Assembly: GCA_947177825.1 (NCBI GenBank)
Contig: CAMWWA010000028.1
Location: 1 to 11,062 of the forward strand
DNA: 11,062 nt
DNA from: an uncultured Clostridia bacterium
Lineage (GTDB): Bacteria > Bacillota > Clostridia > Christensenellales > Borkfalkiaceae
Reading direction: 5' to 3'
Shown: piece after piece, positions 3,764 to 11,062 of the stretch
How the letters are laid out: the number at the start of each line of letters is the position of its first letter
How positions within the stretch are numbered: position 1 is the stretch's first letter
Notes under the pieces: generated by a model
The model's database searches: none
The model's input: the letters and a program-made list of their open reading frames with translations, nothing else
Told to the model about the DNA's origin: nothing
Translations under genes and position numbers: made by a program

Positions 3764-4276
3764 ATGGAAGAATCAAACGTTCAGTACAAAGAATTACTTA
3801 TTTTGAACAACAGGCTTTTGATGCTGGAAAATCTGGTTATCGAATATAAAAACGACGTTAAGGCGTTAAAGATTTGCTCTAACCTGGTTAAAAAGGAAGC
3901 AAAGGCTGTAAAGAACTCCAAGATTCCCGTAGCCGACGGCGATTTGAATTCGGTTCAAGGAAGATACGCCGACTTCGTTGCGGTAATATCCGGACTTATC
4001 AAAGCCAAAAAGGTGGAGGCTCTCAACAAAGCGGTTGCCGACCTCATCGACGTTAAGGCGATGACCGAAGAGGAAATTAAGGCTCTTGAAGAAAAGCTTA
4101 ATCCCGCGCCCGCAGCTGAAGAAAAGCCCAAGCTTGCCGAAACTATCGGAAATGCGGCTCAGAAGCTTGCAAAGAAAATAGAAGCAGGCGCGCAGAAGCT
4201 CGGCACTTCGCTTAGCGAAGCTGTAAACGAGCAGGTTGACGAAATAAAAAAAGCTTTCGCCGGAGACGAAAAGTAA
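3764..4276 (+). CDS. Helical/coiled-coil protein of unknown function, possible frameshift donor
   Basis: A 170-aa soluble protein with no recognised family. It is almost entirely predicted helical and charged. Residues about 1-110 form Leu/Lys/Glu-rich helices, a Pro/Ala linker (NPAPAAEEKPK) lies near 113-123, and residues about 124-165 form an amphipathic Ala/Lys repeat-like helix resembling membrane- or lipid-surface-binding helices. The start ATG 3764 has GGGAG 7 nt upstream and a consensus promoter. Its last seven codons and stop (TAA 4274-4276) overlap the patatin frame, which is in -1 phase. An in-phase A_AAA_AAA heptamer at 4246-4252 could send ribosomes into that frame. In that case this protein would be both a free 170-aa product and the N-terminal domain of a 468-aa fusion. 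Confidence 0.82.
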   Translation: MEESNVQYKELLILNNRLLMLENLVIEYKNDVKALKICSNLVKKEAKAVKNSKIPVADGDLNSVQGRYADFVAVISGLIKAKKVEALNKAVADLIDVKAMTEEEIKALEEKLNPAPAAEEKPKLAETIGNAAQKLAKKIEAGAQKLGTSLSEAVNEQVDEIKKAFAGDEK

Positions 4277-4300
4277 AAATAGGGATAGCGTTCTCCGGCG
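4246..4300 (+). promoter_or_regulatory. Candidate programmed -1 ribosomal frameshift signal
   Basis: In the frame of the upstream gene the codons are ATA AAA AAA GCT, so the seven A at 4246-4252 form an A_AAA_AAA slippery heptamer in correct phase, followed by G. A 5-nt spacer (GCTTT, 4253-4257) leads to a 9-bp stem, CGCCGGAGA (4258-4266) with TCTCCGGCG (4292-4300), with a 25-nt loop that holds the zero-frame stop. AGG at 4233-4235 lies about 10 nt upstream of the heptamer, similar to the stimulatory Shine-Dalgarno-like site in dnaX-type signals. The -1 frame is open only from 4240 (TGA at 4237-4239), so the heptamer lies inside the only 35-nt window where a shift could work. Confidence 0.6.
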
Positions 4301-5169
4301 GCATAAGCAATTGCGCCTATCAGGTCGGATTTACGAAAGCTCTGTTAAATTACGTTTCCCGTGACGAAATAAAGCTGTTGTCCGCCTCGTCGGGCGGCAT
4401 ATTTACGGCTTACGCTCTTTCGGCAAACAAGCTTGAATATATAGAACAGTTATACGAAAACGTCGATATTTCCAAAAAGGCGGAGCTGTTTTATAAGGTA
4501 TTCGCGAAGGGACTGCTTGCCGATTACATAGACGCCGTTTCGGGCGATAACGATAACCTTGAAATACCCACGTGTTTCACGGTCTGTTATATACCGCTCT
4601 ATTCTGTCAGGTATTATTGGATAAACGGCAGTTACAGCAGGATATGGGAGCGCTATTTAAAAGCAGCCGTAAATTATCCCCTTTTAAAATTTTTGCCGTC
4701 GTTTATCAACGGCAGGTTTGCTATAGACGGAGGTGCGGCGGATAATATTCCGCTGTATCCGCTTTTAAAGCAGTCGCGCCCTTTGCCTGCGGATGAGGAG
4801 CTGGATTTGATATTCGTGCTCCATTTCGACGCCCGATACGATTACAGAAAGGACTTTAAAACGGATATTCCTATAGTCGATTTGGACTTGTCTATTTGCA
4901 ACGGCTTTTCAAAGGCGCATTACGATTATTCAAAAAATACAATATCGCAGCGCATAGAAATGTCGTATAAATACGGGGAGAAGATAGCTTCGCGCTTGTT
5001 TTCCGCCGACCACACCAAAGAGGAATATCAGCAAATTGCCAATGAAATTTTCGTTGAAGAGCATACGCTCCGTCAGCAGAATTTCTCGCTTGACCGTCTG
5101 GTTTCGTTTTTGAACGTGGCGGGCAGAACTTTCCGTAACGACACGCGTTGTGTCAAAAAGCTATTTTAA
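4252..5169 (+). CDS. Patatin-like phospholipase, no canonical start; probably expressed by -1 frameshift
   Basis: This is a patatin-fold serine acyl hydrolase acting on lipid acyl esters with a Ser-Asp dyad. Numbering from the GTA codon at 4273 (residue 1), the oxyanion-hole segment is FSGGISNCAYQVG at residues 7-19. The nucleophile elbow is SASSGG with Ser39 as nucleophile; the usual first Gly of GxSxG is Ser. The catalytic Asp is Asp152 in AIDGGAADNIPLYPLL, matching the family DG(G/A) motif. The frame has no ATG, GTG or TTG between the TGA at 4237 and a TTG at 4378, and starting at 4378 would delete the oxyanion hole. The listed start is the first -1-frame codon after the slippery heptamer. 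Alternatives are a rare start (ATA 4279 or GTA 4273, with GGAG at 4262-4265), a degraded start, or a homopolymer sequencing error. Confidence is high for the family and moderate for the expression mode. Confidence 0.82.
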   Translation, partial: SFRRRRKVKIGIAFSGGISNCAYQVGFTKALLNYVSRDEIKLLSASSGGIFTAYALSANKLEYIEQLYENVDISKKAELFYKVFAKGLLADYIDAVSGDNDNLEIPTCFTVCYIPLYSVRYYWINGSYSRIWERYLKAAVNYPLLKFLPSFINGRFAIDGGAADNIPLYPLLKQSRPLPADEELDLIFVLHFDARYDYRKDFKTDIPIVDLDLSICNGFSKAHYDYSKNTISQRIEMSYKYGEKIASRLFSADHTKEEYQQIANEIFVEEHTLRQQNFSLDRLVSFLNVAGRTFRNDTRCVKKLF

Positions 5170-5310: not shown

Positions 5311-5886
5311 ATGCCGCCCAAAGTCAAATTTTCCAAAGAGCAGATAGTTTTTGCCGCCCTGGACATCGTAAGGGAGCAGGGGATTGCTGCGCTTACGGCG
5401 CGTGCCGTTGCCGATAAGCTTAATTGTTCGGTCGCTCCGGTGTTTTCGGTATTCGAAAATATGGACGAATTGCGTGAAGAAGTTATCCGGCAGGCAAAAA
5501 CCGTTTACGACGGCTATATCGAAGAGGGCTTGAAGCAGGTACTGCCCTTTAAAGGCGTGGGCTTAAAGTATATAGAATTTGCAAAAAAAGAGCCCAATTT
5601 ATTCCGCGTGCTCTTTATGTCCGATTATTCCTTCGGGCTGGATAAATTCATGCTGCTTGACAAAAACAATGCGGCAATAGTCAGCGCGCTTATGAACTCG
5701 TGGTCGGTGGATAAAAAAACGGCAGTCGCGCTGCATCAGGACATAATGATTTATACTCACGGTATCGCCGTCATGTGCGCTACCAAATCGTGCGATTTTT
5801 CGGACGAAGAGATAAGCGAGCGGCTTACCTTTGCGTTTATGAGTATGTTGAAGCAAGTTAAAGAGGTAAAAAATGATAAGAATTGA
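5311..5886 (+). CDS. TetR/AcrR-family transcriptional regulator
   Basis: A 191-aa DNA-binding repressor, the usual TetR size. Residues about 8-54 form the TetR N-terminal domain. The helix-turn-helix is at about 29-48 (LTARAVADKLNCSVAPVFSV) and is followed by FENMDELREEVI, the typical post-HTH helix. The C-terminal residues 60-185 are helical and should form the dimer and ligand domain; the ligand is not deducible. ATG 5311 follows GGAGAGG at short spacing; a longer frame from TTG 5272 would start within the promoter region and is rejected. The 3' end overlaps the ABC ATPase by 14 nt (5873-5886), implying translational coupling. The palindrome at 5273-5284 suggests it represses this operon until an inducer, perhaps the transporter's substrate, is present. 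Confidence 0.9.
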   Translation: MPPKVKFSKEQIVFAALDIVREQGIAALTARAVADKLNCSVAPVFSVFENMDELREEVIRQAKTVYDGYIEEGLKQVLPFKGVGLKYIEFAKKEPNLFRVLFMSDYSFGLDKFMLLDKNNAAIVSALMNSWSVDKKTAVALHQDIMIYTHGIAVMCATKSCDFSDEEISERLTFAFMSMLKQVKEVKNDKN

Positions 5887-8132: not shown

Positions 8133-10283
8133 GTGAAAAAAAGAAAAAGAGCTTTACCCGAACTTAATAAATCTTCCGTGTGGAAAATGTTCATTTTCGT
8201 CGCGATAATCGTTCTTGTGGAGGTCGCGGCAGGTCTGTTCATTTTCAGTCAGTTTTCTTCGCGCTCGTATAAGCAGGAATACGCCGCAATTCAGCAGAAG
8301 GCGGACGGCGTATCGAGTAAGATATATCAAGCCCATAGCGACGATATCAATAATATAGAAAGCGACGAAGCTTTGCTTACCGCAATAACGGAAGAGTGTG
8401 CAGCAACCGGCGAATTCGAATATTATATCGTTTTCAGCGAGGCAAGCGGCGGAAAAATCGTAAGCGGCGGCGGACTGAATCTCAGCGGAAATCTCCGCGA
8501 TAACTACGGGCTTTCTTACAACTCGGTCGGTAGAATCGAAGTTAGCGGCAAGACTTACGTCTTTGCACCGTCGGCTCTCGGCAAAAGCGGTTACCGCATA
8601 GGCGGATTGAAAGACTTTACCGAACACCAGAAAATTATCACCAACCTGCGCGGAAATACCGTTGCTATTTTAATTGCCGCGGGTATGGTAATTACGGCGG
8701 CTTTCGTCATTTACGCTTATCTGCTTGCAAACAAGGAGAGGACGCACCACTTCAAATACCGCGTCAAGCTGAATAAGGATGGTAAAATCGTAAAGTCCAA
8801 CGCGGCTTTCAAGCACGAATTTGCGTCTGTTTCCTCGATTGATACGGCAAACCTCAACAAGGACAGCTTCAACCTTGTAAACATGAGCGGCACAACCGGT
8901 GAAAAGCTGGTTACTATGCGGCTTTCGCATTCGCTCGTTCTTGCAGGTGACGTGGCAAACGCAGAATCGTTTATTCAGAGCGGTGGTGACGCCTCGGGCG
9001 AACTCGACGCCGACGGAAAGACGACGTCTTCGCTTTCCAAGGTTTTCGAAGGCTTTACGACAAAGGGCAAAAGAACGCTGCTCGGCGTTATCTTTATAAG
9101 CAATCTCGACAGAATAAAGACGCTGTTCGGCAAGCAGATGGCTATCGATATTCAGCATATCATAGTCAAAAAGGTGCGTGAAAAGTTCACTTATGCCTAC
9201 GAGCTTGATTTCGGTTATATCGGCGTCACGTATCCCGACGGTAAAAAGCTTGACAATCTTATGTCGGATATGGAGGATATCCACAGATATATAAACGCGC
9301 CCATCAAGATGGAGGACAACCTTTTCACTCTTGACATAAAGGCAGGTTTTGCAATGTGCGACGCTTCGATGCAGCCGCTCAATTTCGAGCACGCTTACAA
9401 AGCTGCAGAGGCGGCGCGCCAGCGCGTAATGGATACCAATATTGCCGACTATATCGTTTACCACGAGTCGCAGAGAAAGCTTTACGACAAATATTTCATC
9501 ACCTTCGACATCAAGCAGATGCTTTCGGAAGGCGCGTTCGAGATGGAATATCAGCCGCAATATAATATAAAGGAAGAGAGGATAGAGGGCTTCGAGGCGC
9601 TGTTCCGCGTCAAGAAAAGCTGGAACGTCAACGTCGATACGTTCTCTTTCATAACCTATGCGGAGCGCACGGGCGCGATGGTTCAGCTCGGTGATTTCAT
9701 ATTCGATACGGGCATGCAGTTTGCAAAGAAGCTGGAAGGCAAAAACGTCAGCGTGTCGCTTAACGTGTCGCCCGTTCAGCTGATGCAGGCGGGCTTTACG
9801 GAAAACTTTTTGCGCCTCTATAAAAAATACGATTTAAAACCCCGTTCGATTTGCGTGGAAATAACCGAAAGCTTTTTAATGACCAACTTTACGGAAACGC
9901 TCAAAAAGCTGGATATTTTAACCGCTCAGGGTATCGACGTGCATCTTGACGACTTCGGTACGGAATATTCGTCGTTGCTGTACATCAAAAAGTTGCCTAT
10001 TTCTACAATTAAGATTGATAAAGAGTTCGTCAAAGACGTTCTTACAAGTAAAGAGAGCCAGGCAATTATCAAATTCATTACGAACATTGCAAAGCTTTTA
10101 AACAGAACGACTATCTGCGAAGGCGTTGAAACCACGCAGGAATTCGATATGCTGAACTACCTGGGGTGCGATACCATACAGGGTTGGATTATCGGCAAAT
10201 CTATGAAGCCCGACGCGGCATTAGAAATAGTAGATACTTTCGATTACAAGAAAATTGCGGCGGCTAAGAACGGCGGCAAGTAA
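8133..10283 (+). CDS. Membrane sensor with degenerate GGDEF and EAL domains (c-di-GMP phosphodiesterase)
   Basis: A 716-aa protein likely to hydrolyse cyclic di-GMP to pGpG. Architecture: basic N-terminus, TM1 at about 19-39, an extracytoplasmic sensor region of about 135 residues, TM2 at about 177-198, a cytoplasmic linker at about 205-300 of uncertain fold, a GGDEF-like domain at about 310-450, and an EAL domain at about 460-705. The GGDEF signature is replaced by YELDFG (356-361), so it should not make c-di-GMP but could still bind nucleotide. The EAL domain keeps the catalytic and metal residues: Glu488 (EAL), Asn544, Glu579 (ITE), Asp606-Asp607, Lys627, Glu663/Glu666 (EGVE) and Gln683. 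One change is DDFGTEYSS for the usual DDFGTGYSS in loop 6. The start is GTG 8133, with GGGGGA upstream. It heads an operon with the next EAL gene, 21 nt away. Confidence 0.92.
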   Translation: MKKRKRALPELNKSSVWKMFIFVAIIVLVEVAAGLFIFSQFSSRSYKQEYAAIQQKADGVSSKIYQAHSDDINNIESDEALLTAITEECAATGEFEYYIVFSEASGGKIVSGGGLNLSGNLRDNYGLSYNSVGRIEVSGKTYVFAPSALGKSGYRIGGLKDFTEHQKIITNLRGNTVAILIAAGMVITAAFVIYAYLLANKERTHHFKYRVKLNKDGKIVKSNAAFKHEFASVSSIDTANLNKDSFNLVNMSGTTGEKLVTMRLSHSLVLAGDVANAESFIQSGGDASGELDADGKTTSSLSKVFEGFTTKGKRTLLGVIFISNLDRIKTLFGKQMAIDIQHIIVKKVREKFTYAYELDFGYIGVTYPDGKKLDNLMSDMEDIHRYINAPIKMEDNLFTLDIKAGFAMCDASMQPLNFEHAYKAAEAARQRVMDTNIADYIVYHESQRKLYDKYFITFDIKQMLSEGAFEMEYQPQYNIKEERIEGFEALFRVKKSWNVNVDTFSFITYAERTGAMVQLGDFIFDTGMQFAKKLEGKNVSVSLNVSPVQLMQAGFTENFLRLYKKYDLKPRSICVEITESFLMTNFTETLKKLDILTAQGIDVHLDDFGTEYSSLLYIKKLPISTIKIDKEFVKDVLTSKESQAIIKFITNIAKLLNRTTICEGVETTQEFDMLNYLGCDTIQGWIIGKSMKPDAALEIVDTFDYKKIAAAKNGGK

Positions 10284-10304: not shown

Positions 10305-11062
10305 ATGTTAACCTCGTTACTGGAAGAAAACACATTAAATCTTGATTTGGGCGTTTACATACTTTTGGTAGTATTGTTTTTCGTGTTCTGCATAGGCGCG
10401 TGCGTTTTTCTCTTTTTCGGAATAAGGAAGGACAGGAACAGACTTATTGCCGAAAAGTACAAGATTAAGGAGCTGGACAGGCTCGGCTTCGAGGAGCTGC
10501 TCAAACATAAGTACGAAATTAACCGCGGCGATTTACACTTTTCCGTCATATTGATTCAAATTGACGGAATGTCGGATATGAAGCTTTCGCTTGGCGAAAG
10601 GCAGGTTAAAAAGATTACCCAGATGCTTCGCGAGCGCATTATGCGCGTTATTCCCCGCGGTTCCAAAGTCTGCGACTACGACGACGAGTGCCTTGCGGTT
10701 TATATCGAAGAGCATATGGACAATACAGGCTTGACTAATATTGCAACCGTAACCATATCGGAGTGCAACAAGCCCGTAACTTTGCTTACGCGCGCAAAGC
10801 TTAATATCAACGTCAATCTGGGTATTGCAAGCAACAACGAATTCAGTGCCGACGCCGTTGCGCTGTTGCAGAATATCGAGCTTGCGCTGGTTACCGCAAA
10901 GAAGGACGGATTAAATAAATTCGTTATCTATTCAGAAGTGCTTGCGGAAACGCAGACCGACGAGTACAAGCAGTACCAGGATATCAAAACGGCAATTGCG
11001 GAGCATCAGTTTACGCTGTTCTATCAGCCTATTTACGACCTCAACCGCAATAAGGCTATTGC
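10305..11062 (+). CDS. Membrane-anchored degenerate GGDEF-EAL protein (cut by right window edge)
   Basis: 252 codons are visible, with no stop before the edge. One TM helix lies at about 17-40, then a basic/charged linker. A GGDEF-like domain at about 60-215 has its signature degraded to YDDEC (125-129), so cyclase activity is unlikely. An EAL domain begins at about 233 (EHQFTLFYQPIYDL), matching the FxxxYQPI opening of EAL domains. Its catalytic residues lie outside the window, so activity cannot be judged. ATG 10305 has AAGGAG at 10295-10300, only 4 nt away. It follows the first EAL gene by 21 nt with no terminator, so both are probably co-transcribed from the promoter at 8060. It lacks the large extracytoplasmic sensor of its neighbour and is therefore a likely partner or paralogue with a different input. 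Confidence 0.88.
   Translation, partial: MLTSLLEENTLNLDLGVYILLVVLFFVFCIGACVFLFFGIRKDRNRLIAEKYKIKELDRLGFEELLKHKYEINRGDLHFSVILIQIDGMSDMKLSLGERQVKKITQMLRERIMRVIPRGSKVCDYDDECLAVYIEEHMDNTGLTNIATVTISECNKPVTLLTRAKLNINVNLGIASNNEFSADAVALLQNIELALVTAKKDGLNKFVIYSEVLAETQTDEYKQYQDIKTAIAEHQFTLFYQPIYDLNRNKAI

Follow-up and report, generated by a model that had tools for sequence, protein, structure and literature searches.

A probable programmed -1 frameshift joining a four-helix-bundle protein to a patatin-like phospholipase in uncultured Clostridia

Viruses and mobile elements supply most known examples of ribosomal slippage by one base into the -1 frame, and among ordinary bacterial enzymes it is rare; the SD-like and stem-loop stimulators of such frameshifts are missing in some known cases. 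Few bacterial cellular genes have a demonstrated -1 frameshift. One heptamer survey, which sought SD-like stimulators 6-17 nt upstream, counted dnaX, seven IS elements and two phage genes as the expected and proven cases in its 69 clusters (PMC4066793). A later case of a bacterial cellular -1 frameshift is copA (PMC5009743), and GeneTack yielded two-ORF dnaX in 17 genes from 12 genera (PMC3711429).

Here we consider a locus in which a gene for a small helical protein overlaps a patatin frame that has no usual start codon. We consider it very probable that ribosomes make a conserved, programmed -1 frameshift of the dnaX/IS3 type here, which gives a helix-bundle/patatin fusion beside the free bundle; we infer that slippage occurs and that it is ribosomal, as well as its efficiency. 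In our judgement the comparative support for the frameshift, which comes from related sequences, appears unusually clear for a bacterial cellular gene.

Layout of the locus

The window, by which we mean the whole stretch of DNA analysed (11,062 nt), comes from an assembly of 1.34 Mb in 210 contigs that is 82.6% complete. Its gene order is GAPDH, the 170-aa helical gene, the patatin frame, TetR-like, ABC and FtsX, and two further large neighbour genes lie at 8133-10280 and 10305-11060, the first with an EAL domain and the second leaving the contig. The features of the overlap are as follows.

3764..4276, + strand: zero-frame gene for the 170-aa helical protein (ORF and translation)
4233..4235, + strand: SD-like AGG, 10 nt 5' of the heptamer (sequence; anti-SD pairing across 23 loci)
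4246..4252, + strand: putative slippery heptamer A_AAA_AAA, in phase with the 3764-4276 frame (present in 23/23 start-less loci)
4253-4257, + strand: spacer GCTTT between heptamer and stem (sequence)
4257..4301, + strand: predicted stem-loop, arms 4257-4266 and 4292-4301 (folding versus shuffles)
4274..4276, + strand: zero-frame stop TAA of the helical gene, placed within the loop of the stem-loop
4252..5169, + strand: -1 frame after a slip, an Arg/Lys-rich linker and patatin-like phospholipase domain, 305 aa (stop 5167-5169)

An earlier note on this DNA had claimed that the patatin frame lacks ATG, GTG and TTG ahead of its oxyanion-hole motif, and had placed it in -1 phase to the preceding gene and open only to 4240. 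Both claims agree with the sequence: the frame opens at 4240 directly after a TGA at 4237-4239, there is no ATG, GTG or TTG between 4240 and 4377, and the first such codon is a TTG at 4378, inside the domain and beyond the oxyanion-hole motif. The signal that the note described, an in-phase A7 heptamer, a 5-nt spacer, a 9-bp stem around the stop and an AGG about 10 nt upstream, proved exact to the base. The codons at the heptamer (4244-4255, helical frame) are ATA AAA AAA GCT, and the stem has 9 bp formed from arms 4258-4266 and 4292-4300, or 10 bp counting a U-G pair between 4257 and 4301. Recomputing the lengths of the predicted products from the sequence returned those given earlier, namely 163 + 305 = 468 residues after a -1 slip at the heptamer beside a 170-aa free form.

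In the mechanism that we propose, most ribosomes would terminate at the stop of the helical gene, setting free a four-helix-bundle protein whose tail is flexible. Some of them would pause while the anti-SD of their 16S rRNA is paired with the AGG and, in the clade of the window, also against the downstream stem-loop, whereupon the P- and A-site lysine tRNAs on AAA AAA would slip back by one base. Translation would then run through the Arg/Lys-rich linker into the patatin domain and give the 468-aa fusion. If the slip is the sole route to the patatin, the enzyme would be found only fused to the bundle, at a fixed ratio to the free bundle.

A second in-phase A_AAA_AAA_G (GCA AAA AAA GAG) occurs at 5583-5589, within the TetR-like gene, so a heptamer by itself proves nothing. 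The window holds ten A7 runs on its two strands, compared with 15.5 expected.

Related loci and the conservation of the slip site

Related patatins were sought in 93 genomes of the genus (10 matched at E<=1e-3), 398 of the family (26 at E<=1e-40), a sample of 396 from the order (11 at E<=1e-80), 41 of family f19 (5 at E<=1e-80) and 74 of family f32 (5 at E<=1e-80). A class sample of 391 genomes gave two matches at E<=1e-80, both known already, and no new locus. Because the threshold outside the family was strict, distant stand-alone patatins are under-counted there. A related patatin was found in 36 genomes, and in 30 of these the helical gene stands in front of it; in the other six (L010, L029, L030, L031, L032 and L040, where L031 and L011 are the same gene, counted once) the patatin stands alone, with its own ATG or GTG (ATG in L032) and no helical gene. 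The 30 paired loci divide into 23 with the slippery arrangement, five with a patatin start, one in-frame fusion (L036) and one that is broken (L038). Slippery loci span three families (f1, f19, f32): besides those of genus g1 (L002-L007, L016) and genus g4 (L015, L017-L025), both f19 (L035, L037) and f32 (L034, L039, L041, L042) contain them. Since the loci are related by descent, counts over them overstate their independence and are not independent trials.

In all 23 start-less loci the helical frame has AAA AA(A/C) directly after a codon that ends in A, and this site lies 24-33 nt upstream of patatin residue 1. The A run at this site is six long in one locus (L034, alone in having A_AAA_AAC there), seven in four (the window, L003, L004 and L039), eight in 15, nine in two and ten in one. 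From each locus's own codon usage 1.49 in-phase heptamers would be expected at the site rather than the 23 seen, and elsewhere in the same ORFs there are nine in 10,217 codons. In the GC-rich loci L021 and L022 the CTA at the slip site is the sole CTA among 60 and 55 leucines, respectively. The heptamer thus appears, from these sequence counts, to be conserved beyond protein constraint; a lone A7 is unremarkable, and it is conservation that rules out a chance heptamer.

The missing start is as constant. All 23 slippery loci lack ATG, GTG and TTG between the heptamer and patatin residue 1. In 19 of them the whole open -1 frame ahead of residue 1 is free of these codons; the remaining four (L018, L021, L022, L039) have some far upstream, at 99-396 nt. 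Possible weak starts are TTG (L016, L021) or CTG (L015) as patatin codon 3 and, in L006, L007, L015 and L020, a CTG lying 6 nt ahead of residue 1. At the place of window position 4273, where the earlier note had suggested looking for an ATG or GTG in relatives, the two closest have GTA, the same as the window, and the 23 loci together have CTC (12), CTG (4), GTA (3) and TTA, CTT, CTA and CGA (one each). This codon seems to vary as a conserved Leu/Val would and not as a start; the four CTG are likely the only candidates for one. Distant relatives without the heptamer do carry starts near this position.

Is the stretch between the heptamer and the patatin read in the -1 frame? No stop interrupts that frame between the heptamer and patatin residue 1 in 21/21 loci (L015 and L037, of other lengths, were left out of this comparison). 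Over the seven codons before residue 1 the BLOSUM score of the -1 frame in 13 loci is 2.30, versus 1.10 and 1.10 for the other frames; in another eight, three of which are near-identical, it is 2.42 versus 1.90 and 1.95, a smaller margin than in the 13-locus class. The Arg/Lys-rich linker also resembles the N-terminus of ATG-started relatives, and on these patterns we take the stretch to be coding in the -1 frame.

The loci that do without the slippery arrangement are as telling as those that have it. L026, L027 and L033 have an ATG as patatin start, 27 nt upstream of residue 1; L009 has a TTG that overlaps the stop of the helical gene, and L043 apparently a CTG behind GGGAGG. The heptamer is absent from all five, and in the alignment of helical proteins none has a K-K pair at its place. 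Heptamer and missing start would thus seem to occur together (Fisher's test, 23/0 versus 0/5, 1e-5, descent uncorrected). In L048 (G052:C29:4700-9500) there is a helical gene without a patatin behind it, the next gene reading like what we take to be an acetyltransferase, and genome G052 has no patatin match at E<=1e-3. This protein keeps I-K-K-K, spelt ATC AAA AAG AAA without a heptamer, so that the lysines can persist in its absence. Natural in-frame fusions of the two genes are L036, from f19, and a nearly identical database protein, P0040 (447 aa, 4 member sequences). At the ten-A run of L036 a -1 slip would lead to a stop shortly afterwards, so that slip and read-through may have exchanged roles there. 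The start-less arrangement is therefore not fixed, other loci using a start codon (five) or an in-frame fusion (L036, P0040).

Three loci show further breaks. In L038 (G628), which carries an A_AAA_AAA, the helical ORF ends straight after an A8 run and the patatin could be reached by a +1 or -2 shift, not by -1; this locus is probably broken or misassembled, and its 5' part also seems off frame. L005 (G086) has one extra frame break in the helical ORF upstream of the heptamer, by mutation or assembly error, and the patatin of L028/L033 (G304:C7) is split in two overlapping pieces, as a broken gene or an assembly error.

Stimulatory elements and competing explanations

Averaged over the 23 loci, pairing with the anti-SD peaks at -4.1 kcal/mol in the 8-nt window ending 9 nt before the heptamer, whereas the mean elsewhere is -0.3 to -2.2 kcal/mol at 13-59 nt and -0.3 to -1.0 at 18-23 nt. 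The SD-like element is AGGGAG in L018 and L035, and L015 and L037 have no real one (-1.1 and -1.3 kcal/mol). The stem of the window folds at -22.0 kcal/mol (z -3.34, 1/200 shuffles as good). By z the stem-loop is strong, at -2.3 to -4.5, in L002-L004 and L034, and moderate, at -1.4 to -2.3, in L006, L007, L035, L015 and L037; the remaining 14 loci lie from -1.1 to 1.1. The mean z is -0.9, with 10/23 below -1. The stem-loop is thus unsupported as a general stimulator across the 23 loci and strong in the window clade and L034; to judge from these folds it would be clade-specific, and the SD-like element commoner. Seven window-type rows have 90% of their stem cells paired, three of them with one compensatory change (A-U to C-G), and L005 disrupts two core pairs. 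Pairs with double changes are no more frequent than in shuffles (443/500 reach the count), and the paired share and the covariation score are reached by 14/500, so that covariation lends the stem weak support. A trade-off between the two elements is possible and weakly supported by their strengths, which are anticorrelated (Spearman -0.50, p 0.016, descent uncorrected). Of what the earlier note had hoped to see conserved in related genomes, the heptamer and the missing start held across the 23 loci and the stem did not; its reading of the locus as a programmed -1 frameshift gains support from this comparison.

Could it be the polymerase that slips? In programmed transcriptional slippage an A would be added or dropped, and some mRNAs would carry both frames fused. 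Runs of 7-10 A in 22/23 loci, and of 8-10 in 18/23, would suit this, and Thermus dnaX (9 A) is read in this way and the 10-A two-ORF dnaX is thought to be (PMC3711429, PMC1088944), although one of the same sources reports selection against slippage as evident at nine-A runs in a large proportion of genomes (PMC1088944). We nonetheless regard this explanation as improbable, because the run is only six A long in L034, whose A_AAA_AAC keeps just the X_XXY_YYZ rule, and seven in the window, L003, L004 and L039. Codon phase is kept throughout, which favours the ribosome, and an SD-like element at 9-10 nt would have no evident role for a polymerase. In species with the longer A runs polymerase slippage is possible.

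Translational coupling, by which terminating ribosomes would restart at a non-standard codon (CUG, AUA, AUC or GUA) near the stop and make a free patatin, fits the position of the zero-frame stop, which begins -5 to +7 nt from patatin residue 1 in the 23 loci. L043 seems to use CTG with a strong SD, four slippery loci have CTG at the same place, and IS911, in which AUU initiation is reportedly combined with -1 shifting, offers a precedent. Yet the codon of residue 1 varies (ATA 16, ATC 4, GTA 2 and GGC 1 of 23), as does that at -6, both in the manner of conserved Ile/Val and Leu/Val, and coupling would leave unexplained both the heptamer in 23/23 loci and its loss where there is a usual start or no patatin; we think it very unlikely. 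We find it hardly credible that the two ORFs form a single gene from which an A was lost or miscounted, or that the patatin is dead, having lost its start. The sequence is from a MAG, the A tract is error-prone, and other loci are visibly disrupted (the further breaks of L005 and L038, the split patatin of L033) or fused in frame (L036). The conserved arrangement contradicts such a reading, however: it is shared by 23 genomes, and the patatin domain is well conserved, with internal stops in none of the matches listed. An assembly error at the A tract is also unlikely given that L003 and L004 share both the arrangement and A7 and that 11/11 close database relatives of the helical protein (P0121-P0131, not all independent of L003/L004) end in the same frame. 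The eight A of a direct fusion, which the earlier note had proposed to look for in reads, were sought in assemblies, where close relatives have A7. A programmed ribosomal frameshift is thus the reading that we carry forward.

The fusion product, its possible role and its known counterparts

An AlphaFold2 model of the helical protein (27 homologues) places residues 2-112 in a four-helix bundle, with block-mean pLDDT of 92-98 across residues 11-110, and gives residues 117-170 low confidence; the heptamer falls near the end of this tail. No Pfam family matches the protein at its cut-off and Foldseek found no PDB fold match at E<=0.001, so that no N-terminal bundle was found common to it and solved patatin-like phospholipases. 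The best PDB candidates (E 0.0052 by sequence, 0.22 by fold) were unconvincing, and PADLOC matches to PbeC (E 0.0007 and 0.0028) were judged to be coiled-coil matches.

The -1 frame product matches PF01734 Patatin (E 5.8e-10, 40.1 bits against a gathering cut-off of 27.7), and G7 G8, S38 and D150-G151-G152 are invariant in 11/11 aligned relatives; in these, G7 G8 would presumably form the oxyanion hole, S38 would be the nucleophile and D150 the catalytic Asp. On its sequence, the product would be a member of the patatin-like phospholipase family, and lipase activity is predicted. Its nearest solved folds are the lipase complex 9kh6, CapE, PlpD and CapV (Foldseek E values, patatin domain: CapE 1.8e-7, PlpD 2.0e-7, AbCapV 3.5e-7, VipD 8.9e-4). 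In a model of the natural fusion P0040, the sole fused row of its alignment (A4), block means are mostly >85 in the patatin domain, and the bundle is less confident at 42-79; a joint helical and patatin alignment with P0040 (A3) was dropped, its helical rows having landed on the patatin part, and was replaced by A4 and A5.

What might such a fusion be for? More speculatively, the bundle may serve the lipase as scaffold or partner, positioning or restraining it, and surplus free bundle may co-assemble with the few catalytic copies. We also entertain, tentatively and with considerable doubt, a self-contained accessory device in which frameshifting would adjust how much of a membrane-damaging lipase is made relative to its own free bundle, the latter acting as scaffold or inhibitor, for example in defence or in a toxin/immunity-like role. 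Hints in this direction are the patchy distribution, the family-mixing tree, an enzyme half structurally like CBASS lipases, some of which have been solved as filaments (structure titles), and a divergent regulator, XRE-type by what we take to be its likeness, upstream in 12/30 paired loci (L005, L016, L018-L025, L042, L043; a motif scan in which some loci had shorter upstream sequence, L007 only 710 nt). This regulator is absent from the window; elsewhere it lies about 570-630 nt before patatin residue 1, with a conserved QRN(V/I)SNWE.G..EPD. When the slippery label is mapped on a tree of 35 patatins, 5 changes account for it, compared with a shuffled mean of 10.2. The tree, which has nine open forks and gives no direction of change, intermingles the host families f1, f19 and f32, as transfer or old paralogy might.

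If the frameshift is as we propose, this patatin family seems reachable only via a slip, and the missing start together with the slip would explain why gene callers cut its members short; the database proteins P0007 and P0008 (264 aa) start downstream of the oxyanion-hole strand and have no Pfam label. Four states coexist among the relatives (frameshift, start codon, in-frame fusion, bundle alone), which makes it directly testable how recoding is gained and lost and how a free-to-fused ratio is used. We found no frameshifted bacterial patatin in print in the open-licence literature; an unlabelled cluster is possible in the supplementary tables of the GeneTack and heptamer surveys, which lay outside that search. 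The word "patatin" is absent from PMC3711429 and from the first 300,000 characters of PMC5009743.

How, then, does the locus compare with systems already described? Its enzyme half shares the patatin fold of PlpD, CapV/CapE and VipD. It differs from the CapV/CapE effectors of CBASS in that no PADLOC family matches the patatin at E<=0.01 and no CD-NTase stands among five Pfam-scanned neighbours (the GAPDH, TetR-like, ABC, FtsX and EAL proteins; window >2400). With orfA/orfB of the IS3 family it has in common overlapping ORFs, an A-rich slippery motif with stimulators and, on our reading, a fusion as the active enzyme. Unlike those elements it would encode a cellular lipase and not a transposase: a profile search found no transposase family in either product, phage and plasmid collections yielded no homologues, and none of 14 pattern matches in viral contigs was confirmed as a relative. 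Two-ORF dnaX is likewise a cellular gene that needs recoding for its longer product; there, however, 12/17 are poly-A, of which nine have 10 A and are thought transcriptional, and the protein is another one (PMC3711429). The likeness to E. coli dnaX lies in an A-rich heptamer (A_AAA_AAG in dnaX), an upstream SD-like element and a downstream hairpin, predicted in the window (PMC3711429, PMC5600365 for dnaX), with no suggestion that the proteins are homologous. The E. coli dnaX shift leads to a shorter product (PMC3711429), whereas at the patatin locus the shift would lead to a longer fusion that adds an enzyme domain.
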